64,000 nucleotides of DNA from Fulvivirga maritima. Lineage in GTDB: Bacteria; Bacteroidota; Bacteroidia; Cytophagales; Cyclobacteriaceae. This document shows positions 1,389 to 15,266 of the stretch, piece by piece (the stretch's first letter is position 1; every line of letters begins with the position of its first letter). The position numbers and the translations under genes were made by a program. The stretch is taken from positions 433,501 to 497,500 of the forward strand of contig NZ_CP089980.1 in the NCBI RefSeq assembly GCF_021389955.1, read 5' to 3'. The notes below the pieces were generated by a model. The model saw only the letters and a program-made list of their open reading frames with translations. It did no database searches and was not told the DNA's origin.

Positions 1389-1570
1389 GGTTGATAGCAA
1401 TTAAGCTTCTAAAATACTCTGCATGCCGAATAGAAGACATTTTTACTGATAATGGATTTATTAATTTTCTTTGAAATATTTAACATTTTAATAAAACATT
1501 CCATACTAAATCCACTACTTAACGCTCAACCATTATTACAATAAACACTAAAAGTAATTACTTCCATTCT

Positions 1571-1642
1571 CACTGAAAACAGTGATTTTCAATAGAATAA
1601 GGCCTATAAGCACTTAGAAATACTTTTCGATTGATAATATTG
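1571..1642 (+). promoter_or_regulatory. Putative promoter with upstream 21-bp element (copy 1)
   Basis: A 21-bp element at 1571-1591 contains the inverted repeat TGAAAA-N6-TTTTCA. It lies 44 bp (start to end) ahead of TAATATTG (1635-1642), one mismatch from the Bacteroidota -7 box TAnnTTTG, with TTA at 1614-1616 in the -33 position. The same element, 20/21 identical, occurs at 7370-7390 with exactly the same distance to its -7 box. The position around -65 suits an activator site. Function is inferred. Confidence 0.5.
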
Positions 1643-1674
1643 TATTTCTATTAGTTTAAACTCATTCTAAAGCG

Positions 1675-4443
1675 ATGAAACAGGACATCACCCAATCTAC
1701 AGGTTATATTTTCAATCATACCATTGAAAAAAGCATTAACACCTACCTTATAGAATGGCAAGGCCTCTTTACCAAAGCCATTAATTCATCTGATAGCGAG
1801 GACTCTTCTATTTCTATACAAGCCCTGAATGAAGCAATGGAACTGCCCTGTAAGGTGCCATTTTTCAAAAGTTGGGACTGGTTGGTTTCCTGCCTGCCGG
1901 CCATGCAGATCTCTAACAACACTTTGAAGTATATCGACAAGGTGCCTTCTCATGGTATTGATGATGAGTACAATCTGTTTATGGGTCATATATATCTGTT
2001 TTATCAAATACCAAATGAAGCTTTAGGATATTATAATGCAGTTTCTAAAAACTATAACAGCCCAAGCCTTTCTTTTTACAAGGCCATGGCTCATAAGCTA
2101 GCTGAAGAATATGAAGAGGCTATTTCACATTTGACCAAATATATTAAAGAAAGGCCCACACATGCCTACGCTTACTATGAAAGAGGATTATGCAATTATG
2201 AACTAAAATACTACTCTCAGGCTGAGTATGATTTATCTACAGCCTCTATGTTTGAGCCCAATTACTTTGAATATCAGTACGGAATAGGACTCATTCTTAA
2301 TATGCAAGGTGAGTATGATAAAGCCCTAAGTCACATCAATCACTCCATAAATATTGCCAATAGCGCAGAAACGCAAGTACAAAAAGGAGTGGCACTTGGT
2401 AATCTCAAAAAGTATGACCAAGCGGTAACAGCCATATCTATGGCATTACACAGTGATCCATCAGTAAAAGGAGCACATTTGGAGAGAGCCAAGCAGTTTA
2501 TCTCTCTTGGATATTACGAAAAGGCGCTAGCTGATCTTGATGTAGCTATAAACCAAACCAAAAAGAGCAGGATGGATCTTGTCTATTTTCATAGAGGCAG
2601 AGCACTAGAGGCGCTGGACAGAAGTGAGTTAGGCTTAGAGGCTTATACCAAATCATTAGAATTAACCTTAAATTCTAACCTAAGGCCTACTATTTTCCAA
2701 AACAGGGGCAACTGCTGGCTGTCATTAAAAGATAATGATAAGGCTAAAGCCGATTATAACAGGTCTATTGAGCTGAACCCTGATAATGCAGATGCTTATT
2801 ACAATCGGGCCCTGGCCAATACAAACCTTAACCTGATAGAAGAGGCTATTGAAGACTTCAGCACGTCATTGAACATGCTGCCAGATGACCCGTTAGCACT
2901 ACGCCTACGGGCCGAATTAAAAGCTAAAACAGAGGATTTTGAAGGTGCTTATAATGATTTAGAAACGGCTCTTCTCTATGATTCTAATAGTTACCTCATT
3001 TATGAAACCCTGGGAGATGTACACGCGCTAAAAAATAACATCCCAGCAGCCATAGAGGCTTTCAACAAAGCAGTAAGCCTGAAGCCCAGAATTGCAAGAA
3101 TTTATTTTAAAAGAGCACAGCAGAAAGAAAAAGCAAAAAACATTCATGGGTCAATGATGGATTTAACCCAGGCCTTGCAATTAGACAGCACCTATGAAGA
3201 AGCTAAGGAGTTAATGCGCTCGATTACCTCAAAAAACCAACAGGCCGCTTCCGTATTTACCCAAAATACAGCTGCTACTAATACCGTAGAGCCGGAGCCA
3301 GACAATGATGCCTTTTACTTTAAAAGAGCGTTAACTCACAGCAAAGCCAATAAAACGCTTGAGGCATTAGAAGATCTTAACAAAGCGATAGAGCTCTCTC
3401 CTAATAACAGTCGTTATTATACCCAGCGAGGTGTTGAGTGGATGAAACTCAAAGATTACACAAGAGGCATTCAGGACTTTAACAAAGCAAATGAATTGAC
3501 TGATCGTGATGTTTTAGCCATTTATAACCGTGCTGTTTGCTATTATTACCTCGGTGAATACGAAAATAGCATAGCCGATTATACCACTATCATTGAATCA
3601 CATACGCCTAATGCTCCTACTTATGCTAACAGAGGTCGGGCTTATGCTGCCATAGGAGAAAATGATAAAGCTGTAGCTGATTTTGAAAAATGTATCGGTT
3701 TCAATCCGAAATCGCCATATGGCTATCTGGAGAGAGGTAACTACTACATGAGAACCGGTCAAAATGAAGAGGCGTTGAAGGACCTCAACATGCTCATAAA
3801 GCTTCAGCCAACAAATGCCACTTTTTATAATAGCAGAGGTCAGGTTAATGACAAGCTTAATCGCACAAAAGAGGCTATCGCTGACTTTGAAAAAACCAGT
3901 AAACTTGATCCTCAAAGCACATATCCCTATATAAATATGGGTAACTTATACAGAAAACTCAACCAACCTACTGAGGCGCTGGCGGCTTATAATAAGGCCA
4001 TTTCATTAAACCCTAAAGAGCCGCTTACATTCTCTAATATGGGATTGATTTATTATGATATGGCGCTTTACGATGAAGCTATGAAATGCTTTGATAAAGC
4101 TATTGCTAATGACCCTGAACATGTGAATGCCTACTATTTTAAGTCATTAGTATATATACAAAACGAAGACACCTATGATGAAGCTTTAGAAGAATTAGAA
4201 CAAACACTGATTCTGGCCCCTAACCACCAGGATGCCTTAGAGCAAGTAGGTGCCATTATGCTTCATAAAGAAGAATATAAAAAATCCAAAGAAGCTTTAG
4301 ATCACCTTTTAAACATCAATACACAAAGGGCTCGTGCCTATTTTTTAAGGTCTAAGGTTCACTCGGCACTTCAGCTGCAGGAAGCTTCAATAGAAGACGC
4401 TATCAAAGCTCACTCTCTTGATCCTGATAATTTTCCTTTATAA
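1675..4443 (+). CDS. Large cytoplasmic TPR-repeat protein (paralog 1)
   Basis: 922 residues made almost entirely of 34-residue tetratricopeptide repeats (recurring A-Y-N-R-A / L-N-P-D-N-A pattern). Roughly residues 1-110 are a non-TPR head containing a W-rich stretch (FKSWDWL), 110-515 a first TPR array, 520-545 a polar linker, and 546-918 a second array. No signal peptide or membrane segment is visible, so it should be a cytoplasmic protein-binding scaffold. The next gene is a paralog sharing the head and the tail (SALQLQEASIEDAIKAHSLDP against NALQLEDEAIEDAIKAFSLDP), so a tandem duplication is likely. Start chosen at the only ATG following the promoter; the Shine-Dalgarno is weak. The partner protein is unknown; the DUF4132 gene downstream is a candidate by context only. 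Confidence 0.9.
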   Translation: MKQDITQSTGYIFNHTIEKSINTYLIEWQGLFTKAINSSDSEDSSISIQALNEAMELPCKVPFFKSWDWLVSCLPAMQISNNTLKYIDKVPSHGIDDEYNLFMGHIYLFYQIPNEALGYYNAVSKNYNSPSLSFYKAMAHKLAEEYEEAISHLTKYIKERPTHAYAYYERGLCNYELKYYSQAEYDLSTASMFEPNYFEYQYGIGLILNMQGEYDKALSHINHSINIANSAETQVQKGVALGNLKKYDQAVTAISMALHSDPSVKGAHLERAKQFISLGYYEKALADLDVAINQTKKSRMDLVYFHRGRALEALDRSELGLEAYTKSLELTLNSNLRPTIFQNRGNCWLSLKDNDKAKADYNRSIELNPDNADAYYNRALANTNLNLIEEAIEDFSTSLNMLPDDPLALRLRAELKAKTEDFEGAYNDLETALLYDSNSYLIYETLGDVHALKNNIPAAIEAFNKAVSLKPRIARIYFKRAQQKEKAKNIHGSMMDLTQALQLDSTYEEAKELMRSITSKNQQAASVFTQNTAATNTVEPEPDNDAFYFKRALTHSKANKTLEALEDLNKAIELSPNNSRYYTQRGVEWMKLKDYTRGIQDFNKANELTDRDVLAIYNRAVCYYYLGEYENSIADYTTIIESHTPNAPTYANRGRAYAAIGENDKAVADFEKCIGFNPKSPYGYLERGNYYMRTGQNEEALKDLNMLIKLQPTNATFYNSRGQVNDKLNRTKEAIADFEKTSKLDPQSTYPYINMGNLYRKLNQPTEALAAYNKAISLNPKEPLTFSNMGLIYYDMALYDEAMKCFDKAIANDPEHVNAYYFKSLVYIQNEDTYDEALEELEQTLILAPNHQDALEQVGAIMLHKEEYKKSKEALDHLLNINTQRARAYFLRSKVHSALQLQEASIEDAIKAHSLDPDNFPL

Positions 4444-4502
4444 AAAAGTATGAGCGTGGCCTATACTTATTTAAACGGTAAAACATTTTTGCTATAAGAT
4501 TA

Positions 4503-4510
4503 TAATTTTG
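4503..4510 (+). promoter_or_regulatory. Possible -7 box for the second TPR gene
   Basis: TAATTTTG matches TAnnTTTG exactly and lies 73 bases before the ATG at 4583. No TTG sits at the usual 17-20 base spacing upstream, and the 21-bp element seen ahead of the genes at 1675 and 7496 is absent here. It is followed by GACCA-CA-TGGTC (short inverted repeat) in the leader. Confidence 0.3.
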
Positions 4511-4582
4511 TAAGACCACATGGTCTGAATAAAGGTATAATCCAGACTACTTAGTTATTTTTTAATCAATCATACTGAGGAT

Positions 4583-7321
4583 ATGAAGCCAGGAGATCAA
4601 TCGAACCTACCAGTTATTAAATCGCAGCTGCAATCCTATTATCTAAAAGAATGGCATAAGCATTTTTCTAATGCACTCCAATGTGCTGATAATAATGACA
4701 GACAGATGGTCGTGAGCCATGTAAATATTGCCATGGAGCTAGGCTGCAGTGCTTCGCTGATCAACAGCTGGCAATGCCTGCAGGCTCATTTACCACTTTC
4801 AGTTCAGCAGCTAGAAAAACTTATAGAGCTGGTTCCTTCACCCAAGTCTGACGAAGAAAGACTTTATCTGGCCCATATGCACTTGCTTTCAAATGATTAT
4901 TTCAATGCACTAGTGCTCTATAAATCATCTGAATACAGCACCTCTTTATCATTTTACAAAGGGTTGGCCTATTTCAATAATGGTTATTATGATAAAGCAC
5001 GGCAATGCTATAATCAATACCTCGAACATCATCCGCTACAGCCTTTTGCCTACTACGAAAGAGGACTGACTCTTCTGGAGAAAAAGCAACCAAAAGAGGC
5101 TATTGATGATTTTCAAACGGCACTAATGATCAATTCATCTCATTATGAATACCATTTTCAATATGCCAAAGCCAAAATAAATTTTGGCACCAATGACAAT
5201 GCCTTAGATCACCTCACCAGAACTATTAACTTAAATCCTGAGCACTATGAGAGCTACCTTTTAAGGGGCAACCTAAGAGTGCAGACAAAGCTAAACGAAC
5301 AGGCATTAGAAGATTTTACCCAGGCCATTGAGATTAACCCTGAAAGGGCTGAAGCTTATGCCAAGAGAGGCTCACTTTATAACAATGCTTATAATGATAA
5401 TACTAAGGCCATTGATGATCTCCGCAAAGCTGTAGAACTAATCACCCCTAACCTGCCTGATGGCATAAAAGAAGAAATCTTCATAAGCCGGGCTAAGGTG
5501 AATCAGGACATGAAGTACCACTCTCAGGCTATTAATGATTATAGTAAAGCCCTTGAGTTTTCATCAGGCTCGCATCACCTGTATATCTCCAGAGGCAATT
5601 CATTCTTTGCCCTTCAAGAATATAAAAAGGCACTTGCTGACTATAAAAAATCAACGGAATTTTGGAAAAATAGCGCGGTTTCTCATTACAACATAGCTTT
5701 AGCCAAAGAAAACCTGGGAGACAAAAAGGGCGCTATTGAAGCTTATACGCTAAGCCTTATTGAAAGGAAAAATGACCTAAGAGCCATTACACAAAGAGCG
5801 ATTCTCCGTGCTGAAACAGATGATTGGGAAAATGCAAAAAAAGACTTTGACCTGGCCATTATGATCAATCCTAAGCGAGCACAGACCTATAATGATTTAG
5901 GAAATGCACTTTCTAACAGAGACGAAAAGGAAGAAGCCATAAAAGCATACACTCACGCGATAGAGCTTGAGCCTGAAGCTTATATTTTCTTTAACCGCGG
6001 TCTGTGTAAAGAAGCTTTGAAAGATAGTGAAGGCGCCATTGCTGATGCTAACCTGGCCATACAGCATAATGATCAATATGCCGAAGCCTATAACCTGAAA
6101 GCCAACAACCTGGCCATTCAGGGCAAACATGAAATGGCCATCACAGCTTTCACTAAAGCCATAGAGCTTGAGCCTGATAATGCCATGTATTACTGCAACA
6201 GGGCACTTTCATATAGTAAAAACATAGACCAGCTAAAGGCGCTTGAAGATTACAACAAAGCCGTAGAATTAGCTCCTGCTTATAACAGAACTTATGTGAA
6301 CCGAGGTAGCCTATGGGTAGATATGAAAGATTACACCAGAGCTATACAAGATTGTGATAAGGCCATACAAAAAGAACCACTCAATGATATCGCCTTGTTT
6401 AACCGAGCCATTTCTCACTTTAATCTGGGTAATTATAGCCAGGCAGCAAAAGACTACACCATGGTGATATCTCTATTACCTTTTGACTATGTAGCCTATC
6501 ATAACCGCGCTCGTGCTTACGCTAAGCTAAGAGAAAGAGAAAAGGCTTTAATGGACTTTGACAAATGCCTTGAAATCAACCCTGACTATGTAGAAACATA
6601 CGCTGAAAGGGCAAAATTCTTTGAACAGCTCAGGCTATATGATAAGGCTATGCAAGATTTTAATATGCTGATACAACTCAGGCCTGCCTCCTCCAAGTAC
6701 TATAACTGGCGGGGCTTGCTGTTTGAACAATTAAATCAGCTAGATGAAGCCATGGAAGATTATAATATTGCAATAGAATTATCTCCTGATATAGCAGACC
6801 CATTTATAAACAAAGGCAATATTTACAGAAAAAAAGGAGACCCTATTCAAGCCTTAGACTGTTACAGCGAAGCGATTGAAATCAACCCCAAAGACCCTGT
6901 AACCTACTCTAACAAAGGCCTGATTTACTATGACATGGAAATATTTCATGAGGCTCTTGAGAATTTTGATCAGGCCATAGCTCTTAACCCTGAGCTTGCT
7001 CATGCTTACTATAGCCGTGCCTTGGTTTACAGCCAACAAAACCAGGAAGACAAGGCATTAGAAGATTTCCAACAGGCTATTGAGCTGGATGCTGGCTACA
7101 TTGATGCCTATAAAGAAAAAGGCCATTTATATTTCAGGCTTTTGAAGTTTAAAGAAGCAAAGGAGGTAATAAACCAGCTCATCAAGGTGAAACCAAACTT
7201 AGCTTATGCTTACCATTTCAGGTCAAAAATCAATAATGCATTGCAGCTGGAAGATGAGGCTATAGAAGATGCTATTAAGGCCTTCTCATTAGACCCCATC
7301 AACCATCCGCTCAACTCATAA
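4583..7321 (+). CDS. Large cytoplasmic TPR-repeat protein (paralog 2)
   Basis: 912 residues, paralogous over its whole length to the preceding TPR protein, 139 bp downstream on the same strand. The head (YYLKEWHKHFSNAL, then NSWQCLQAHLP) matches the head of paralog 1 (YLIEWQGLFTKAI, SWDWLVSCLP), and the rest is an uninterrupted series of TPRs without the polar linker of paralog 1. No signal peptide or transmembrane segment. GAGG seven bases before the ATG is a better ribosome site than most in the window. Divergence between the two proteins is substantial, so the duplication is old rather than an assembly artefact. Function presumably scaffold or adaptor; no enzymatic motif seen. Confidence 0.9.
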   Translation: MKPGDQSNLPVIKSQLQSYYLKEWHKHFSNALQCADNNDRQMVVSHVNIAMELGCSASLINSWQCLQAHLPLSVQQLEKLIELVPSPKSDEERLYLAHMHLLSNDYFNALVLYKSSEYSTSLSFYKGLAYFNNGYYDKARQCYNQYLEHHPLQPFAYYERGLTLLEKKQPKEAIDDFQTALMINSSHYEYHFQYAKAKINFGTNDNALDHLTRTINLNPEHYESYLLRGNLRVQTKLNEQALEDFTQAIEINPERAEAYAKRGSLYNNAYNDNTKAIDDLRKAVELITPNLPDGIKEEIFISRAKVNQDMKYHSQAINDYSKALEFSSGSHHLYISRGNSFFALQEYKKALADYKKSTEFWKNSAVSHYNIALAKENLGDKKGAIEAYTLSLIERKNDLRAITQRAILRAETDDWENAKKDFDLAIMINPKRAQTYNDLGNALSNRDEKEEAIKAYTHAIELEPEAYIFFNRGLCKEALKDSEGAIADANLAIQHNDQYAEAYNLKANNLAIQGKHEMAITAFTKAIELEPDNAMYYCNRALSYSKNIDQLKALEDYNKAVELAPAYNRTYVNRGSLWVDMKDYTRAIQDCDKAIQKEPLNDIALFNRAISHFNLGNYSQAAKDYTMVISLLPFDYVAYHNRARAYAKLREREKALMDFDKCLEINPDYVETYAERAKFFEQLRLYDKAMQDFNMLIQLRPASSKYYNWRGLLFEQLNQLDEAMEDYNIAIELSPDIADPFINKGNIYRKKGDPIQALDCYSEAIEINPKDPVTYSNKGLIYYDMEIFHEALENFDQAIALNPELAHAYYSRALVYSQQNQEDKALEDFQQAIELDAGYIDAYKEKGHLYFRLLKFKEAKEVINQLIKVKPNLAYAYHFRSKINNALQLEDEAIEDAIKAFSLDPINHPLNS

Positions 7322-7340
7322 AGGGGCCAAAAGCCCCCTT
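7321..7340 (+). terminator. Hairpin after the TPR pair
   Basis: AAGGGG (7321-7326) pairs with CCCCTT (7335-7340) around the loop CCAAAAGC. It begins on the last base of the stop codon. There is no T tract after it, so it may be a weak terminator or a 3'-end stabilising hairpin. Confidence 0.45.
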
Positions 7341-7369
7341 AACCTCCTTATTTACAGGGAACTGCTTAC

Positions 7370-7441
7370 CACTGAAAACCGTGATTTTCACGAATCCTTA
7401 CTTATAATGAGCTTGAAAAAGCATCGAATATGATATTTTTG
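7370..7441 (+). promoter_or_regulatory. Promoter with upstream 21-bp element (copy 2)
   Basis: The 21-bp element (7370-7390; core ACTGAAAACCGTGATTTTCA) is followed by TTG at 7413-7415, an 18-base spacer and TATTTTTG at 7434-7441, a perfect TAnnTTTG -7 box. The predicted start of transcription is near 7447, about 49 bases before the ATG at 7496. Element-to-box distance is identical to that at 1571-1642. Confidence 0.6.
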
Positions 7442-7495: not shown

Positions 7496-7921
7496 ATGAA
7501 AATCAATTACAGTGTAAAACAGATGGGTAAAAAACACCCACTCATAGGTAGAAGTACCATTGAAATAAAAGATATAAGTCAGCCTGCCCCATTAAGGGAT
7601 CTCATATCAGCAATAGTAACACAACAAGTAGAGGCCTTCAACCAACGTAAAAGCGAAAACAACATTATCCCCTACCTTTTAGATCAAGATATTGATAGCC
7701 AGAAAGAGCATGGTAAAGTAGGATTTAATGACAGCTATAATAATGAGCTGGCCAATGTAGACGAAGCCATTGAAAACGCACTACTCTCTTTTGAAGACGG
7801 CATATACTGCGTCTTTATTGATGATGAGCAAGTAGAACACCTAAATGACAGGGTGAATATATCAGCGGACAGCATTCTTTATTTTATCAGATTAACTTTT
7901 TTATCAGGTAGCATTTGGTAG
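7496..7921 (+). CDS. Conserved hypothetical small protein preceding DUF4132
   Basis: 141 residues, acidic, without signal peptide or membrane helix. The family is not named with confidence; visible blocks are KQMGKKHPLIGR near the N-terminus, a central GKVGFNDSYNNE, then DEAIENALLSFEDGIYCVFIDDEQVEHL and a C-terminal ILYFIRLTFLSGSIW. The mix of short strands with a strand-rich C-terminus would be compatible with a beta-grasp-like fold, but this is a guess. A GTG lies directly before the ATG at 7496; ATG is preferred. It is 45 bp from the DUF4132 gene on the same strand and probably cotranscribed from the promoter at 7413-7441. Confidence 0.75.
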   Translation: MKINYSVKQMGKKHPLIGRSTIEIKDISQPAPLRDLISAIVTQQVEAFNQRKSENNIIPYLLDQDIDSQKEHGKVGFNDSYNNELANVDEAIENALLSFEDGIYCVFIDDEQVEHLNDRVNISADSILYFIRLTFLSGSIW

Positions 7922-7966: not shown

Positions 7967-10900
7967 ATGAATACAGAAGAGTATTTAAAATCAAAAAGGA
8001 TAGATAACAGACTGGTTAACCTTCATAATCAGTACTATGCTATCAACCAAAGTACTAACAAGGCCGATGAGCCTAATAAACATAAAGCCGCACTAGGGCT
8101 CATGTTCCTAAACGCCTACCCTAGCCTGAGAGAAAACAACAATAATTATAGCACTCACAGCTACTGGGAAAATGTAACGGAGGGCTCTCCCCGCATGAAA
8201 GCCTTTGCTGAATTTGGCGATATCAATAACTTCTGGAACGAGCAAAATTATCCTGTTCTGGAAGATTTATTCGGTAAGGAAATTGCCCCATTCGTTAAAA
8301 AAGCCTGGGATAGCATTCCTTCATTACCCTACCAAACAGGCTATAACCGTCGTTCCTTCAGAACATCACAAAAGCCATATTTACACTTCACCAAAAAGCT
8401 TAATTTCGTTATCTCTCTCAATGTGAGAATGGATTATGATCTTACTCTAAAAGAATATATTCTCTATTCTAACGAAATCGCAGCTTACACCTCTGAGTTT
8501 GGAATATTACTTTCATCATTAGTAGAAGAGGAGCATGCAGAACTCTATCCCTTACTACAAGACATCGTGTATAATAGGCACCCTACAGCTAAAGTAAGCA
8601 GGCCCATTATAAAAGCATTCCTGATCAGCAATAATGAAGGTGCCTGGAAAGCGATTGAAGACCTGCTGCTTTCCGCTCAAAGACAGGAAGGCCTGCGCCA
8701 AACCATATTAGAGCAGCTGGATGAAACCTCCATAGGTGCGCTGATTCATTTTATAAAGTTAACACTTAGGGAGAACCTGATACGCTTCTCTTCTGTAGTT
8801 CGAGCTATGAACACCTGGGCCGGTCTGGGCTGGGATGCTGAGAAACAAAGCACCGTAAAACGCTTTTTTGAGCTCGCACTACACTTTCTGGAACACCCGG
8901 AAGAAGTTAAAAATGCCATTAAAAGTAAAGACAATGCTGAAATATACATGGCCTTATGGGCTGCCGCAGTAAGAGACACCAATAACTGCACAGAATTACT
9001 ACAAGAACTACTTCAGCAAGACAACAAAGAGAAAAACCACCTGGCTCTATATTTTATTAACGAAATAAGCCTGCCAGATACTACCTCAATTGCTGTAGAT
9101 TCACTTATAGAAGATAAGCTTAAAAATGATGACTCTCAGGAGTTCTTATTCTGGCTTATTCATCTGTTAAAATACAGATCGTATTTCACAGAAAACCATA
9201 TCAATGAAGAAACCCATCAGTTAATTGTTGATCACCTGACTAGTGAAGTGCCTAAAATCCCTAAAAAAGGCAAGAAGTTTACGGGTAAGGTGTTTAGCTG
9301 GTCTGTTTTTAACCTTACACAAGAGGAAGGTTATGACTTTTTAATTAACCTGCTTGATGAAAAAACACAAAAAGACCTTGATCTCTTGATTGAGCTATTC
9401 CCTAACATGGGTGTTTACCAAAGAGAAAGAGTAACAAGACTGATACTTCCTGAATTTCATACTTACGGTCAAAATAAACCCAATGAAAGCTATACGCTAT
9501 CTACATTTAAAAGAAATTTCTGCCTGAGCGTACTAAAAGACCGTTCGGCCAGTATAAAAAATGTAGCTATAGAAGCACTTGGCTTTGCTGAGCTAAGTGA
9601 GGAAGAACTGGGTCAATTTGAAGACCTCCTCAAAAGTAAAAGTGCAGACGTACGCGCCAGCATTATCAGCTTTATAATGAAAAAAGATGATGCTACCGTA
9701 CAGCAAAGTATCGATAGGCTTCTTACCGCCAGCAATCAGGAGCAGCGCCTTTCTGCATTAGATATGCTTAATCAATTGCATCAGAAAGAAGAGCTTAGAG
9801 ACTGGACCGCCACTAAAGCAGAGGAATTTATTGCTATGAGGGAGCCTTCTCCGAAAGAACAAATCCTTCTTGAGAACCTTCGCCAAGATGAATCCATCCT
9901 CAATAAATACACTATTGAAAATGGATATGGACTCTTTGATCCTAACAACATTTCATCACCACAAAAGCCTGACGCTCCTAAAAAGGAGATAGAAGAACGT
10001 TTCTTTAATAGCAATTTCGGCCTGAGTGTTTCTGTAGATAAGCTAAAAGAAGAATTAAAGAAACTAGAAGCCATCGTAAAGGAACACCATGATTATGAAT
10101 ATACCGTAACCTACTGGCAGGGAGATAAAGAAAAGGTACTATTAGGCAACCATTTTGCTCCAATAGACAGGGATGATAAAAATAAAACTCCTGAAGAAAA
10201 GTATAACAACTACCCACTGCCTGAGGTATGGAAAGAGTGGATGGAAAACTCAGGGCTTACTAATTTAGATCTGTTTATAACCAGCTTATTCTATTATAAG
10301 ATCAGCTATTTTGATCAAAAAGACAGTAAGTATGATGTATTTCCTAAATCAAAAGAAGTACTAGACAAACTTATTTTTGATGCCCAATTTTCCGATAGAA
10401 AAAGAGACCGTTGGAGAGATGATACCGAATTCAGGATTGTAAGAAATCTCATGAACATATATCCTTTCGAGGATAAAACATTGTATTATAAGGCTTTCTT
10501 AGAGAAGTTCATTAACGAAGTAACTAAAGAAGAGCTAGCCGAATATAGAACAATTGAAGACCGATATTACTCTAATGTAGCTACTTGGAGAGACCTCCCT
10601 ACTATTGCCGGAATTTTCGAGCTCTACCGTGATCGTGCTGATAAAATGAACGATGATGAGTTTAAAGCATATTGGCAATTTGAAGATTGGAGGGTAAAAA
10701 CCTTACCATCAAACTTCAGACTTCAAAATTACGAAGCTGATATAGATCAATTCGCCAGAGCTTATCAATTAGAACTTATCACTAAAGATGAACTGCTTAA
10801 GCGCATTCTTAAGCCCGCAGGCCTAAGAGAGTTAACCAATAGAAGGTTAAATTACGGCAGAAGGCAAAAAGAAAATTTACTCACCAAGTTTCCTTTCTTA

Positions 10901-13018
10901 TCGGAAATACTTGCTCCATGCATTGATTTATTAGTAGATGTAGAATTACAAAGAGGTGATTCACCTACTTCGGTTACTGAGCTGGCCCAAAACATCGACA
11001 CGTTGCAGGGTACTGACTATCTGATAAGAATCCTTCAGGCACTGGGGAAAGACAAACTTCACAGAGGGTATGCTTACTCATATGGCTCGCACCTAATGAA
11101 CAAGCAGGAGGTTTTAAGTAAATATTTAAAAGGTGTTCATCCTAAACCTGAAGAAACTCAGGAAACATTTGATGCTAAAATCAAAGAAGGCAAAATCTCA
11201 GAAACACGATTAGTAGAAGCAGCCATGTATGCTCCTCAATGGCTCTCTTTTGTAATGAACTACCTGGGCTGGTCAGACATGGATAGCGCCGTATGGTGGC
11301 TACATGCCCATGCTAACCAAAGACATGACTCAGAGACTGAAACTGAAATAGCCAGATTCTCTAAGGTAGATGTAGCAGAGTTTAGCGATGGCGCAGTAGA
11401 TAACGACTGGTTCTTATCTATGTACAAATCTCTAGGGCTATCTAAATGGAAAATAGTTTACAATGCCGCTAAATATATTTCTGATGGTGCCGGCCATACC
11501 AGAGCGCAGCTATATGCTGATGTAATACTTGGCAACACTAAAATCAGAGAGGTAACTAAGCGTGTTAAAGACAAGCGTAATCAGGATTACCTCAGAGTCT
11601 ACGGTCTCGTTCCTCTAAGCAAGAAAAACCGAGACAGCGACTTACTAAGCAGGTATAAGTACTTGCAGCAGTTCAAAAAAGAAAGCAAGCAATTTGGCTC
11701 TCAAAGACAAGCCAGTGAAGCTCATGCTGTAAAAATAGCCATGGAAAACCTGGCCCGAACAGCTGGCTATACAGATCCTATCCGTCTTACCTGGGTAATG
11801 GAAACAGCACTGGCCAAAGAGATCATGGACTCTTCTGACACCCTTACTTTTGATAATGTAGAAATCTCTTTAGAGGTAAATGATCAGGGTAAAGCGGAGC
11901 TTAAGGTCACTAAAGATGGAAAACCTTTAAAAAATATTCCTGCTAAGCTGCGCAAAGACAAGGCCGTAACTGAACTTAAAGAGCATCAAAAAACACTTAA
12001 AGAGCAGTATAGCCGTACTTTAAAAAGTCTGGAAGCTGCCATGGTAAACCGTGATAACTTCACTGCCAAAGAAATAACAGAGCTGATCAGCCATCCGGTA
12101 TTAAAACCAATGCTCGAAAAGCTGGTACTGAAAAACGGCGATACCCTGGGGCTATTACAAGAAGGCCAACTGGTAGACATTCATGGAGAAGCGCATCAGC
12201 TGGAAGGGGAATTGTTCATTGCCCACTCTTATGACCTGTATCAAGACAAAAGCTGGAGTGCATTCCAGAAATATGCCTTTGATAATAAACTGAAGCAACC
12301 TTTCAAACAAATATTCAGAGAGCTCTACTTACCTACTGAAGATGAATTGAAGGCGGTAAGCGTATCTAAAAGATATGAAGGCCATCAAGTACAGCCAAAA
12401 CAAACGCTGGCCCTATTAAAATCTCGTGGCTGGACGGTGAGCTACGAGGAAGGTCTGCAGAAAGTATTCCATAAAGAAGGCTTTATAGCTAAAATTTATG
12501 CCATGGCAGACTGGTTCTCTCCTGCTGATGTAGAAAGCCCTACGCTGGAAACGGTAGAGTTCCTTAACAGAAAAACCTGGAAAAATATACCATTTGAAGA
12601 GATCAATGGCCATATTTTCAGTGAGGTAATGCGAGATCTGGATCTGGTAGTAAGTGTAGCTCACGTAGGCGATGTTGACCCTGAAGCCAGCCATTCTTCA
12701 ATGGAGATGCGTGGTGTACTGGTTAAAGAAACTGCTCGTATGTTTAAGCTGGATAACGTGGAAGTGAAAGGCAATCATGTTCATATTACTGGTGAACTTG
12801 GTGAATACAACGTACACCTGGGCAGTGCCATAGTGCATAAAAAACCAGGTCGTTATATACCTATTCTGCCTGTTCACTCGCAGCATAGAGGCCGACTGTT
12901 TTTACCTTTCGTAGATGATGATCCTAAGAGTGCTGAGCTCATGTCTAAAGTACTGATGCTGGCTAAGGATAATGAAATACAAGACCCTACTATTCTCAGT
13001 AGCATAAAAGAAATTTAA
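7967..13018 (+). CDS. Giant DUF4132 protein (YehI/MolR-like)
   Basis: 1683 residues, cytoplasmic by lack of any signal. Residues around 530-620 contain HEAT-like helical repeats (SIKNVAIEALGFAELSEEEL, DVRASIISFIM). A large central part includes YLGWSDMDSAVWWLHAHAN, as in proteins of the DUF5724/DUF4132 architecture. The DUF4132 domain falls roughly at 1290-1460, and the last 190 residues form the conserved C-terminal domain (DVDPEASHSSMEMRG, then RYIPILPVHSQHRGRLFLPF). E. coli YehI and MolR share DUF4132, but their biochemistry is not established. Here the gene follows a small conserved protein by 45 bp and two TPR scaffolds, a context suggesting a multi-protein cytoplasmic assembly. No nuclease, protease or P-loop motif was seen. 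Confidence 0.85.
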   Translation: MNTEEYLKSKRIDNRLVNLHNQYYAINQSTNKADEPNKHKAALGLMFLNAYPSLRENNNNYSTHSYWENVTEGSPRMKAFAEFGDINNFWNEQNYPVLEDLFGKEIAPFVKKAWDSIPSLPYQTGYNRRSFRTSQKPYLHFTKKLNFVISLNVRMDYDLTLKEYILYSNEIAAYTSEFGILLSSLVEEEHAELYPLLQDIVYNRHPTAKVSRPIIKAFLISNNEGAWKAIEDLLLSAQRQEGLRQTILEQLDETSIGALIHFIKLTLRENLIRFSSVVRAMNTWAGLGWDAEKQSTVKRFFELALHFLEHPEEVKNAIKSKDNAEIYMALWAAAVRDTNNCTELLQELLQQDNKEKNHLALYFINEISLPDTTSIAVDSLIEDKLKNDDSQEFLFWLIHLLKYRSYFTENHINEETHQLIVDHLTSEVPKIPKKGKKFTGKVFSWSVFNLTQEEGYDFLINLLDEKTQKDLDLLIELFPNMGVYQRERVTRLILPEFHTYGQNKPNESYTLSTFKRNFCLSVLKDRSASIKNVAIEALGFAELSEEELGQFEDLLKSKSADVRASIISFIMKKDDATVQQSIDRLLTASNQEQRLSALDMLNQLHQKEELRDWTATKAEEFIAMREPSPKEQILLENLRQDESILNKYTIENGYGLFDPNNISSPQKPDAPKKEIEERFFNSNFGLSVSVDKLKEELKKLEAIVKEHHDYEYTVTYWQGDKEKVLLGNHFAPIDRDDKNKTPEEKYNNYPLPEVWKEWMENSGLTNLDLFITSLFYYKISYFDQKDSKYDVFPKSKEVLDKLIFDAQFSDRKRDRWRDDTEFRIVRNLMNIYPFEDKTLYYKAFLEKFINEVTKEELAEYRTIEDRYYSNVATWRDLPTIAGIFELYRDRADKMNDDEFKAYWQFEDWRVKTLPSNFRLQNYEADIDQFARAYQLELITKDELLKRILKPAGLRELTNRRLNYGRRQKENLLTKFPFLSEILAPCIDLLVDVELQRGDSPTSVTELAQNIDTLQGTDYLIRILQALGKDKLHRGYAYSYGSHLMNKQEVLSKYLKGVHPKPEETQETFDAKIKEGKISETRLVEAAMYAPQWLSFVMNYLGWSDMDSAVWWLHAHANQRHDSETETEIARFSKVDVAEFSDGAVDNDWFLSMYKSLGLSKWKIVYNAAKYISDGAGHTRAQLYADVILGNTKIREVTKRVKDKRNQDYLRVYGLVPLSKKNRDSDLLSRYKYLQQFKKESKQFGSQRQASEAHAVKIAMENLARTAGYTDPIRLTWVMETALAKEIMDSSDTLTFDNVEISLEVNDQGKAELKVTKDGKPLKNIPAKLRKDKAVTELKEHQKTLKEQYSRTLKSLEAAMVNRDNFTAKEITELISHPVLKPMLEKLVLKNGDTLGLLQEGQLVDIHGEAHQLEGELFIAHSYDLYQDKSWSAFQKYAFDNKLKQPFKQIFRELYLPTEDELKAVSVSKRYEGHQVQPKQTLALLKSRGWTVSYEEGLQKVFHKEGFIAKIYAMADWFSPADVESPTLETVEFLNRKTWKNIPFEEINGHIFSEVMRDLDLVVSVAHVGDVDPEASHSSMEMRGVLVKETARMFKLDNVEVKGNHVHITGELGEYNVHLGSAIVHKKPGRYIPILPVHSQHRGRLFLPFVDDDPKSAELMSKVLMLAKDNEIQDPTILSSIKEI

Positions 13019-13164: not shown

Positions 13165-13893
13165 ATGAAAATCAAAACATCACTACTAATATTCTTTTGC
13201 CTCACCACCTTCTTCAACCTTGCTCTAGCGCAGAGTGACTTGAACAAATTGGCTTACAAGGCCTATATTACTGAAGACAAAGACCTATGGAAAGAGGTGG
13301 TAGAAAAAAGGCAAAACCTCTATAACAATGATAAGTCTGGAGAAAACCTTTATCAGCTAGCTATGGCTCAGTATGGCCTGCTTAACAATACCAGAGTAGA
13401 TAAAGACGAAGATCTCTTTGATGAATATTATGATGAAATTCTTGAAAATATAGATGACCTGCTAGATCAAGAATATGAAAAAGCCAATGCTTATGCACTT
13501 AGGGCGGCGGTTTATGGATTAGAAACCTCTTACAGTGGCTGGAAAGGTATGTTTTTAGGTCCTAAAAGCAGCAGTAATTTGAGCGATGCAAAGGAAGAAG
13601 ATTATTCATCACCATTTGTGTGGGCTACTTATGGCAGTGCCAAATTATTTGCTCCTTCTATGTTTGGCGGAGACAAAGAAGAAGGTATTAAATCATTTAA
13701 AAAGGCAGTTGAATTATATGAGAAAGCCCAGCTACAGCAAGACTGGCGTTACCTCTACGCCCTGGCCTGGCTAGGACAAGCCTACTACCGCACAGAGCAA
13801 CCCGAGAAAGCTAAAGAAATATACAAGAAAGCATTAAAAGCGGAACCCAATTTCCAATGGGTGAAAGACGACCTTTTACCTGAAGTCAATTAG
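13165..13893 (+). CDS. Exported TPR-containing protein, unknown function
   Basis: 242 residues. It starts with a clear Sec signal peptide (KIK, hydrophobic core, cleavage near LALAQS at residues 20-22). The mature part is helical and acidic in the middle (DEDLFDEYYDEILENIDDLL) and has a TPR-like unit at the C-terminus (YALAWLGQAYYRTEQPEKAKEIYKKALKAEPNF). It is probably periplasmic. It is separated from the DUF4132 gene by a strong hairpin, so it is likely an independent transcription unit. No enzymatic motif is visible; role unknown. Confidence 0.8.
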   Translation: MKIKTSLLIFFCLTTFFNLALAQSDLNKLAYKAYITEDKDLWKEVVEKRQNLYNNDKSGENLYQLAMAQYGLLNNTRVDKDEDLFDEYYDEILENIDDLLDQEYEKANAYALRAAVYGLETSYSGWKGMFLGPKSSSNLSDAKEEDYSSPFVWATYGSAKLFAPSMFGGDKEEGIKSFKKAVELYEKAQLQQDWRYLYALAWLGQAYYRTEQPEKAKEIYKKALKAEPNFQWVKDDLLPEVN

Positions 13894-13941: not shown

Positions 13942-15138
13942 TCAGGTAGGCGTTTCCACTTCATCCCACGGCTGATCCATGAAATGAGTGAGCCAGTTAA
14001 GCGCATAATGTCTTTCATAAATAACACTTGGCATTATAGCTCCTCCCACTTCTCTTCCATTTATACGAGCATTTACACAAGCCCAGTGCATGCGATAAGT
14101 CATATCCAGAGCATCTAAAATTTCCGCTTTAGTTCTTAGCTGCACGCTTGCCTCAAACTCCTCTCTTGTAGGTTGAAAAATAGAGCTAACCACATCAGAC
14201 ACATTGCATATATTATCAGGGTATATTAAATCATCAAATTTACCGAGCGCCCAAAGCAATACATAAAGGCTTTCATACCTCCAGGTAGCATACGCTCGCT
14301 GCTCGTCAGTTAAACTTTCAGCATTATAGATAAACTGCTCCTGCTCAGTAAAAGAGTTTATATTTTTCTCGCCTACCACCCTACCCAGGTGCTCCTGCTC
14401 TACGCCTTCGCCTTTCGCCGCTATCACTAACAAGGCATAAGCACGATCCAGCACCTCTTGCAAAGTCCTCACCTCCACTGTTTCCTGAGAAGGCACACAT
14501 GGTAAATGCTCGTTAACAGCTATTCCTTTTTCCTCTAAAAATTCGCCTGACTTACTTTTTCTGGCCAGCTGATCTTCAGTATAATTTTCTTTAGGCTCAT
14601 CCATATAAGCGGCATTCACATTTACTTCCAGATCATCTATCTCACAGTTTCCGTTCAGGTCTATAATGAGGTTAAAATTCTTATCTAAAAAATGCTGAGT
14701 CTCACTTTTCGTAAACAGATGGTTGGGCTGAGCAAATATAAATCCATCTAAATCCTGCACTAATACCCTTATTATAGACTCAAAGGCCTCTGTAATCTCA
14801 GGCTCTGCCATTAATGACATTTCGCAGTTCATAGACATGATTTTATAGATAAACTTATTTTTCACCTCGGTATTACCAGCAGGTAACGACTGCACAAAAT
14901 TTACCATGCCCGCAAGGTTTTGCGTTAGTCCACATTCTATCTCTTCCAGCTTGTAAGAGGGCGTCTTTCTTTCTCTATAATTAAGCTGAAAGCTGCTATC
15001 TTCAGATGCCTTAACAGCTACTCTTTTCTCTAAGCCATCATCATCTACCTCTAGTTTTACATCAGGCAAAATAGATTTAATTACCCCAAGTATTTTCTGA
15101 AATTCTAAATAGTGACTATATATCGTACAGTTTTCCAT
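13942..15138 (-). CDS. DUF4272 domain protein
   Basis: 398 residues without signal peptide. The C-terminal half (from about residue 190: ARKSKSGEFLEEKGIAVNEH, then TDEQRAYATWRYESLYVLLWALG, and the final ALNWLTHF) fits DUF4272 proteins, whose biochemical role is not established. The N-terminal 180 residues are a separate alpha/beta region found in some longer members. Probably a cytosolic protein. The gene is convergent with the exported TPR protein and has its own upstream region of 128 bp. Confidence 0.8.
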   Translation of the reverse strand: MENCTIYSHYLEFQKILGVIKSILPDVKLEVDDDGLEKRVAVKASEDSSFQLNYRERKTPSYKLEEIECGLTQNLAGMVNFVQSLPAGNTEVKNKFIYKIMSMNCEMSLMAEPEITEAFESIIRVLVQDLDGFIFAQPNHLFTKSETQHFLDKNFNLIIDLNGNCEIDDLEVNVNAAYMDEPKENYTEDQLARKSKSGEFLEEKGIAVNEHLPCVPSQETVEVRTLQEVLDRAYALLVIAAKGEGVEQEHLGRVVGEKNINSFTEQEQFIYNAESLTDEQRAYATWRYESLYVLLWALGKFDDLIYPDNICNVSDVVSSIFQPTREEFEASVQLRTKAEILDALDMTYRMHWACVNARINGREVGGAIMPSVIYERHYALNWLTHFMDQPWDEVETPT

Positions 15139-15266
15139 ATCCTTACTTATTTAAGCTAAGCAATAATACATAATAGACCGTACCACAAAGAATTATCAGG
15201 GGGCTATTCTCCTTATTAACAGCAATTTCACTGGTTTCAGGGATAGTAAATAAGTGTTTCTAAAGT

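Follow-up and report, generated by a model that had tools for sequence, protein, structure and literature searches.

Genes, promoters, and dyads at the locus

The window analyzed here is a 64,000-nucleotide stretch of the Fulvivirga maritima genome. Close to its start lie the genes of two paralogous tetratricopeptide (TPR) proteins, TPR1 (1675..4443, plus strand; 922 aa) and TPR2 (4583-7321), followed on the plus strand by a small gene (7496..7921, 141 aa) and by a gene encoding a DUF5724-DUF4132-DUF7737 protein of 1683 aa (7967..13018). The 141-aa small protein matched nothing in the family search, and its structure model is poor (pLDDT 72). The initial annotation had singled out a 21-mer upstream of TPR1 and of the small gene, and it is found exactly there (1571-1591 and 7370-7390), with 20 of 21 bases identical. 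Each copy begins 64 bases before a promoter box (1571 to 1635 and 7370 to 7434), and each box is preceded at 18 bases by a TTA (1614-1616, plus strand; a possible -33 element of the TPR1 promoter) or a TTG (7413-7415, plus strand; near -33 of the small-gene promoter). As also annotated, TPR2 has no copy of the element upstream.

The boxes are TAATATTG for TPR1 (1635..1642, plus strand) and TATTTTTG for the small gene (7434..7441, plus strand). Sigma-ABfr promoters of Bacteroidota carry TAnnTTTG at -7 and TTTG at -33 (PMC7366714). The -7 motif is exact in TATTTTTG and in its counterpart TACTTTTG in the sister species Fulvivirga sediminis (genome G008), and it has one mismatch in TAATATTG; at -33, TTG at 7413 is CTG in F. 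sediminis, and TPR1 has TTA at 1614. The promoters of the regulon described below resemble Sigma-ABfr promoters in their -7 box, but their -33 element appears to be weak, or its place to be taken by the activator site, as expected for activator-dependent promoters.

Comparison with F. sediminis redefines the element. The locus there has matching gene order with one TPR gene instead of two, orthologous to TPR2 (75% identity), after which come the small gene and the DUF5724-DUF4132 gene (83%); since TPR1 is missing, the upstream site of TPR1 has no orthologue there for comparison. At the small-gene promoter of F. sediminis, CCACTGAATTCCGTGATTTT and TACTTTTG have kept their distance, with a diverged spacer between them. 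The orthologous site, CACTGAATTCCGTGATTTTAGTG, keeps CACTGAA-NN-CCGTGATTTT and has lost the TGAAAA and TTTTCA arms, so that the inverted repeat TGAAAA-N6-TTTTCA proposed initially is not the conserved dyad. The conserved dyad, centered about 5 bp farther upstream, is the 7-2-7 inverted repeat TCACTGA-NN-TCMGTGA, followed by TTT, and at both window sites its center lies 57.5 bp upstream of the -7 box. Dyad 1, TCACTGAAAACAGTGA (1570..1585, plus strand), is without mismatch to TCACTGANNNCMGTGA, and the first copy of the 21-mer amounts to this dyad plus TTTTCA. Dyad 2, CCACTGAAAACCGTGA (7369..7384, plus strand), has one mismatch and is kept in F. sediminis (L028:7819) at equal distance. Both dyads are predicted regulator-binding sites, with TPR1 and the operon headed by the small gene as predicted targets. 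In the place of TPR1, F. sediminis has about 190 bp of unrelated sequence (L028 4741-4930) with a short ORF starting MAYYKASFYTSIKSLADTF, which is perhaps a gene remnant.

The 20-base core of the 21-mer is exact at 1572-1591 and has one mismatch at 7371-7390, where shuffled windows lead one to expect 0.01 matches. The genome-wide tests were pattern searches, and in the whole genome (6,392,613 bp) the 21-mer at up to 1 mismatch retrieved the two window copies only. Searched in the genome and across the genus, the 21-mer as written seems private to the locus because its TTTTCA arm lies outside the conserved dyad. At 3 mismatches, the genome search suggested by the initial annotation yielded two coding matches (L004 and L005) in addition to a regulon site at 13893.

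A recent local duplication, or a dispersed intergenic repeat with no regulatory role, would fit the near identity of the two copies and the paralogy of TPR1 and TPR2. Such an origin is very improbable, however: the similarity does not extend beyond the element, TPR1 and TPR2 share only 36% identity, the genes with a copy in front are TPR1 and the small gene rather than TPR1 and TPR2, and the other copies are restricted to promoters at fixed spacing. A duplication of the TPR1 promoter was rejected on the same grounds of protein identity and lack of flanking similarity. The element is short and has two copies in the window, which might suggest that two AT-rich promoter regions are alike by coincidence, but this can practically be dismissed, given the 0.01 matches expected per window and the conservation of spacing and sequence across species and genera.

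Site-to-box geometry and distribution in the genus

A relaxed-core search in the F. maritima and F. sediminis genomes gave orthologous sites concentrated at G000:1834427-1848505 and on F. sediminis contig C49, respectively. The predicted regulon comprises about 10 promoters in F. maritima (G000), the majority of which are inside a 25-kb cluster, where the sites lie within divergent promoters. This cluster encodes a 1300-aa zinc-ribbon protein, DUF1266, TPR, TssD-like, SUKH, VWA-like, and PurA-like proteins, as well as a TPR histidine kinase and a LuxR-type response regulator. Conserved sites are also present upstream of a SUKH gene (13.9 kb) and of a TPR gene for a 141-aa protein (4.119 Mb), and the target promoters align on the inverted repeat TCACTGA-NN-TCMGTGA. 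The initial annotation had assigned the signal to TPR1 and to the pair formed by the small gene and the DUF4132 gene; sites do precede both, but they are not private to this locus, being two of about ten. Orthologous promoters in Fulvivirga kasyanovii (G003) and in genome G014 also have the dyad (with proteins about 40 to 70% identical). In these two genomes, the dyad is present at the kinase/regulator promoter as well, with no clear box at 30 or 56.

The first T of the box follows the dyad center at either 56.5 bp (57.5 bp for the window pair) or 30.5 bp (31.5 bp in the VWA operon); the center is always upstream of the box and never on or past it, and one dyad is frequently common to two divergent promoters. 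A set of 19 intergenic sites was picked by the 16-mer alone in F. maritima, F. kasyanovii, and six other genera; 15 of the 17 exact TAnnTTTG boxes downstream of these sites are at offsets 30, 56, or 57 (binomial p of about 1e-21, promoters on one dyad being not fully independent and the loci of the Fulvivirga genomes having been retrieved for their sites). Among the controls, 19 chance 16-mers of which 18 are in regulator-less genomes, none has an exact box at 30, 56, or 57. The element-to-box distance, which the initial annotation had put forward as a test, holds across species and genera.

Nine of the 56.5-bp promoters have a weaker second dyad exactly 26 bp downstream (mean score, 5.9/8, versus about 2 at neighboring offsets). 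With the transcription start placed, on the assumption of a distance of about 11 nt, by the first T of the box, the two classes are centered at about -42 and -68, and the weak dyad implies that the -42 position is used at distal promoters too. The 30.5-bp position, which is class II-like, is a second allowed position beyond the one envisaged initially. At the window promoters, the small gene reaches about 5/8 and TPR1 1/8 in the score for a proximal second dyad, and neither is clear. Their 57.5-bp distance places the dyad center at about -68 from the start inferred from the box, upstream of about -60, so that class I is a label of position for these promoters; the initial proposal of an activator-type site at fixed distance from TAnnTTTG is supported in kind, with its dyad drawn about 5 bp off and its scope not limited to the locus.

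The spacing of 57.5 bp at the window promoters, where the other distal promoters have 56.5 bp, and the want of a clear proximal dyad count against the reading, developed below, of the element as an activator site of the cluster regulator. Site-plus-box pairs at 57 (up to 2 mismatches) are confined to the window sites in F. maritima and to their orthologue in F. sediminis; the genus yielded three further matches, none demonstrated as a regulon member. A third, weaker window dyad, which the initial annotation did not include, is TCCCTGAAACCAGTGA (15228..15243, minus strand), located before the gene of a 398-aa DUF4272 protein (13942..15138, minus strand). It is conserved in F. sediminis, and we regard it as tentative and the DUF4272 gene as a possible target; its nearest box-like sequence, TATTATTG, is 67.5 bp away, one helical turn past 57, which puts the spacing outside the main classes. 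Elsewhere, the dyad TCCCTGAAAACCGTGA (L168 4052-4067) precedes TAGCTTTG by 68 bp in front of a 228-aa gene, and contig C10 of F. sediminis has a site similar to this L168/L170 dyad. The spacing of the L168 dyad is possibly a fourth class.

The cluster is present in 4 of 15 genomes of the genus, and an orthologue of its regulator (70 to 100% identity) is found in the identical four. Pairs of a site and a box at 30 (up to 2 mismatches) number 7, 7, 1, and 2 in the cluster genomes versus 2 in the other eleven, i.e., 17 in 26 Mb of regulator-bearing genomes versus 2 in 69 Mb of regulator-less genomes. Exact 16-mers occur at seven places in F. maritima, of which six belong to the regulon while the remaining one shows homology to a coding stretch, and at six places in F. 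sediminis, every one orthologous; the genomes without the cluster have 0 or 1 each, among the genomes listed. Within the genus, site-plus-box pairs are found essentially only in the four regulator-encoding genomes. Several candidate sites were set aside: L167 3529 and L169 1998 (coding), TCACTAACACCAGTGA in L172/L173 (conserved, not at a regulon gene), L121 5886 (with a box at 30 yet not upstream of a matching gene), and the site on contig C46 of F. sediminis (L068; possibly chance).

A candidate NarL/LuxR-type activator

The regulator encoded in the cluster is a NarL/LuxR-type response regulator of 213 aa (L063:12413-13054, corresponding to G000:1838415-1839053), about 1.4 Mb from the window. 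It has a receiver domain (PF00072, 9e-22) and a GerE domain (PF00196, 1e-15), and its best match among solved structures is NarL (1a04, 7e-27). The adjoining kinase is a TPR-containing protein of 665 aa with HisKA_3 (PF07730) and HATPase (PF02518) domains. NarL recognizes dyads of the 7-2-7 type and can activate transcription at positions -44.5, -67.5, and -77.5 (PMC7419079); at Escherichia coli ogt, tandem NarL sites are located at -44.5 and -77.5, and activation is possible from -67.5 (PMC7419079). These positions, together with the Bacteroidota -7 box and the centers at about -42 and -68 found here, lead us to read the element as an activator site. On this comparative evidence, the element is predicted to be the site through which the NarL/LuxR-type regulator of the cluster activates transcription, a reading to which we assign a probability of about 0.8.

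The proposed mechanism would be as follows. A regulator dimer would occupy the 7-2-7 dyad TCACTGA-NN-TCMGTGA. At proximal promoters, 30.5 bp would separate the center of the strong dyad from the TAnnTTTG box (about -42 relative to the inferred start); at distal promoters, this distance would be 56.5 bp (about -68), mostly together with a weak dyad at -42 that would be filled cooperatively. The bound regulator would then recruit RNA polymerase carrying the Bacteroidota primary sigma factor, and a single dyad between divergent genes may act as the proximal site of one promoter and as the distal site of its partner. The window sites, being of the distal type (57.5 bp), would activate TPR1 and the small/DUF5724-DUF4132 operon alongside the cluster. 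The analysis establishes the site, its spacing, its conservation, and its joint occurrence with the regulator; we infer that the regulator binds the dyads, that it is phosphorylated in response to a signal, and that regulation is positive.

It is unlikely, if conceivable, that the regulon is real and its activator is another protein, such as another regulator of the LuxR type with its gene elsewhere in the genome. F. maritima does encode LuxR regulators at 43% identity, and the helix-turn-helix region belongs to a common type; with the many paralogues that LuxR-type regulators have in these genomes, the recognition helix is no diagnostic feature. However, the cluster regulator (at least 70% identity) alone tracks the sites across the genus, it is encoded amid the sites in nearly every genus examined, and the genes of a paralogous pair are accompanied by a dyad variant of their own (see below). 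Less probable still is a repressor operator that turns the promoters off. A palindrome conserved upstream of many genes and a regulator from a class able to repress would agree with it, whereas the centers fixed at about -42 and -68, upstream of the box, are as expected for activators, and the base-pair-exact spacing between box and site is unneeded for repression.

Activation by the cluster regulator would most resemble the NarX/NarL system of E. coli (ogt and yeaR), which likewise combines a receiver-GerE regulator, a HisKA_3 kinase, and 7-2-7 inverted repeats. The system described here departs from it in the dyad sequence, in the Bacteroidota -7 box, and in a tandem spacing of 26 bp rather than 33 bp. 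In addition, two divergent promoters commonly share a single strong dyad, the kinase contains TPR repeats, and the targets have no connection with nitrate. Among Bacteroidota, the FimS/FimR system of Porphyromonas gingivalis is comparable, FimR being a LuxR-type regulator. The TPR part of the kinase matches the NCBIfam FimS model with 69.8 bits, far below the curated cut-off of 600, and the target genes differ; no comparable site for FimS/FimR was found in the literature searched.

The regulon is new, its regulator is of a known kind, and the geometry is strikingly exact and widely conserved. No prior description was found in the literature searched (DUF4132, TAnnTTTG and response regulators, FimR/FimS, MoxR/vWA conflict systems, and TssD). 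The predicted regulon unites scattered genes (DUF4132/DUF5724, DUF1266, DUF4272, SUKH, TssD-like, and large TPR), and a named candidate regulator with a searchable site-plus-spacing signature provides a handle on the role of the system. It further offers a natural series of activator positions, exact to the base pair, on the unusual Bacteroidota promoter, for which activator geometry is little documented in the literature searched. A search of 10 of the proteins against catalogued defence systems (PADLOC) identified none, with weak TPR, PrimPol, and HEAT-ARM matches alone. The TssD-family matches are weak: one scores 40 bits (L063:9209-9676; cut-off, 25.8), and another is below the cut-off with 23.8 bits (L064:696-1100). 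Neither sheath nor baseplate genes were noticed in the cluster of Fulvivirga.

Other genera and a paralogous two-component pair

Loci in other genera were found through a conserved 133-aa protein and not through the site. Its structure is predicted with confidence (pLDDT 92), and fold matches to the model do not rise above background (best Z, 7.0; no Foldseek match with an E value of <0.1). In six of six genera, the 16-mer (up to 1 mismatch) lies exactly 56 before TAnnTTTG upstream of the gene of this protein (131/146 aa), often accompanied by a divergent box at 30, and the Mesonia site, TCACTGAAAACCGTGA, equals dyad 2 of the window except for the first base. Flavobacterium, Flexithrix, Salegentibacter, Formosa, and Mesonia keep the kinase and regulator pair, with regulators 65 to 76% identical; the Joostella stretch examined contains other genes of the cluster. 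In Salegentibacter, relatives of the small gene, the DUF5724-DUF4132 gene, and an LRR gene adjoin the kinase/regulator cluster, which independently ties the window genes to the cluster regulator. In a more distant genus of the family (G088, L029), the orthologous small gene has no site-box pair.

A relative of the 133-aa protein (29 to 32% identical) was also noticed in the gammaproteobacteria Thalassolituus, Marinomonas, and Thalassobium (L136, L137, and L138); no kinase or regulator was seen in the stretches of L136 and L137 examined. In Flavobacterium beibuense, a contractile-tail-sheath-like ORF (L128 17387-20033; recognized by eye from its N terminus) lies a few kilobases from the regulated module.

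A paralogous kinase/regulator pair exists in F. kasyanovii and in genome G007, its regulator being 48% identical. Dyads of the form TCACTA-N4-TAGTGA precede its own and neighboring genes at 56 and, divergently, at 30 to boxes, with tandem weaker dyads 26 bp apart (L124 858-899 and 5128-5143; L125 6056-6097, 9748-9789, and 13340-13355). The geometry is thus kept and the dyad altered in sequence, which is what one would expect of regulators that each recognize a dyad of their own. With somewhat better than even confidence, we propose that an apparently mobile, conserved Bacteroidota two-component regulon commands an undescribed multi-gene system (1300-aa zinc-ribbon, DUF1266, VWA, PurA-like, SUKH, TssD-like, DUF5724-DUF4132, LRR, and TPR proteins) and that its paralogues keep the 30.5- and 56.5-bp spacings and change the dyad. 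The paralogous pair, with its shifted dyad, could serve for asking how such regulators change DNA specificity. By eye, a PorP/SprF-like gene is also recognizable in the neighborhood of the pair in L125.
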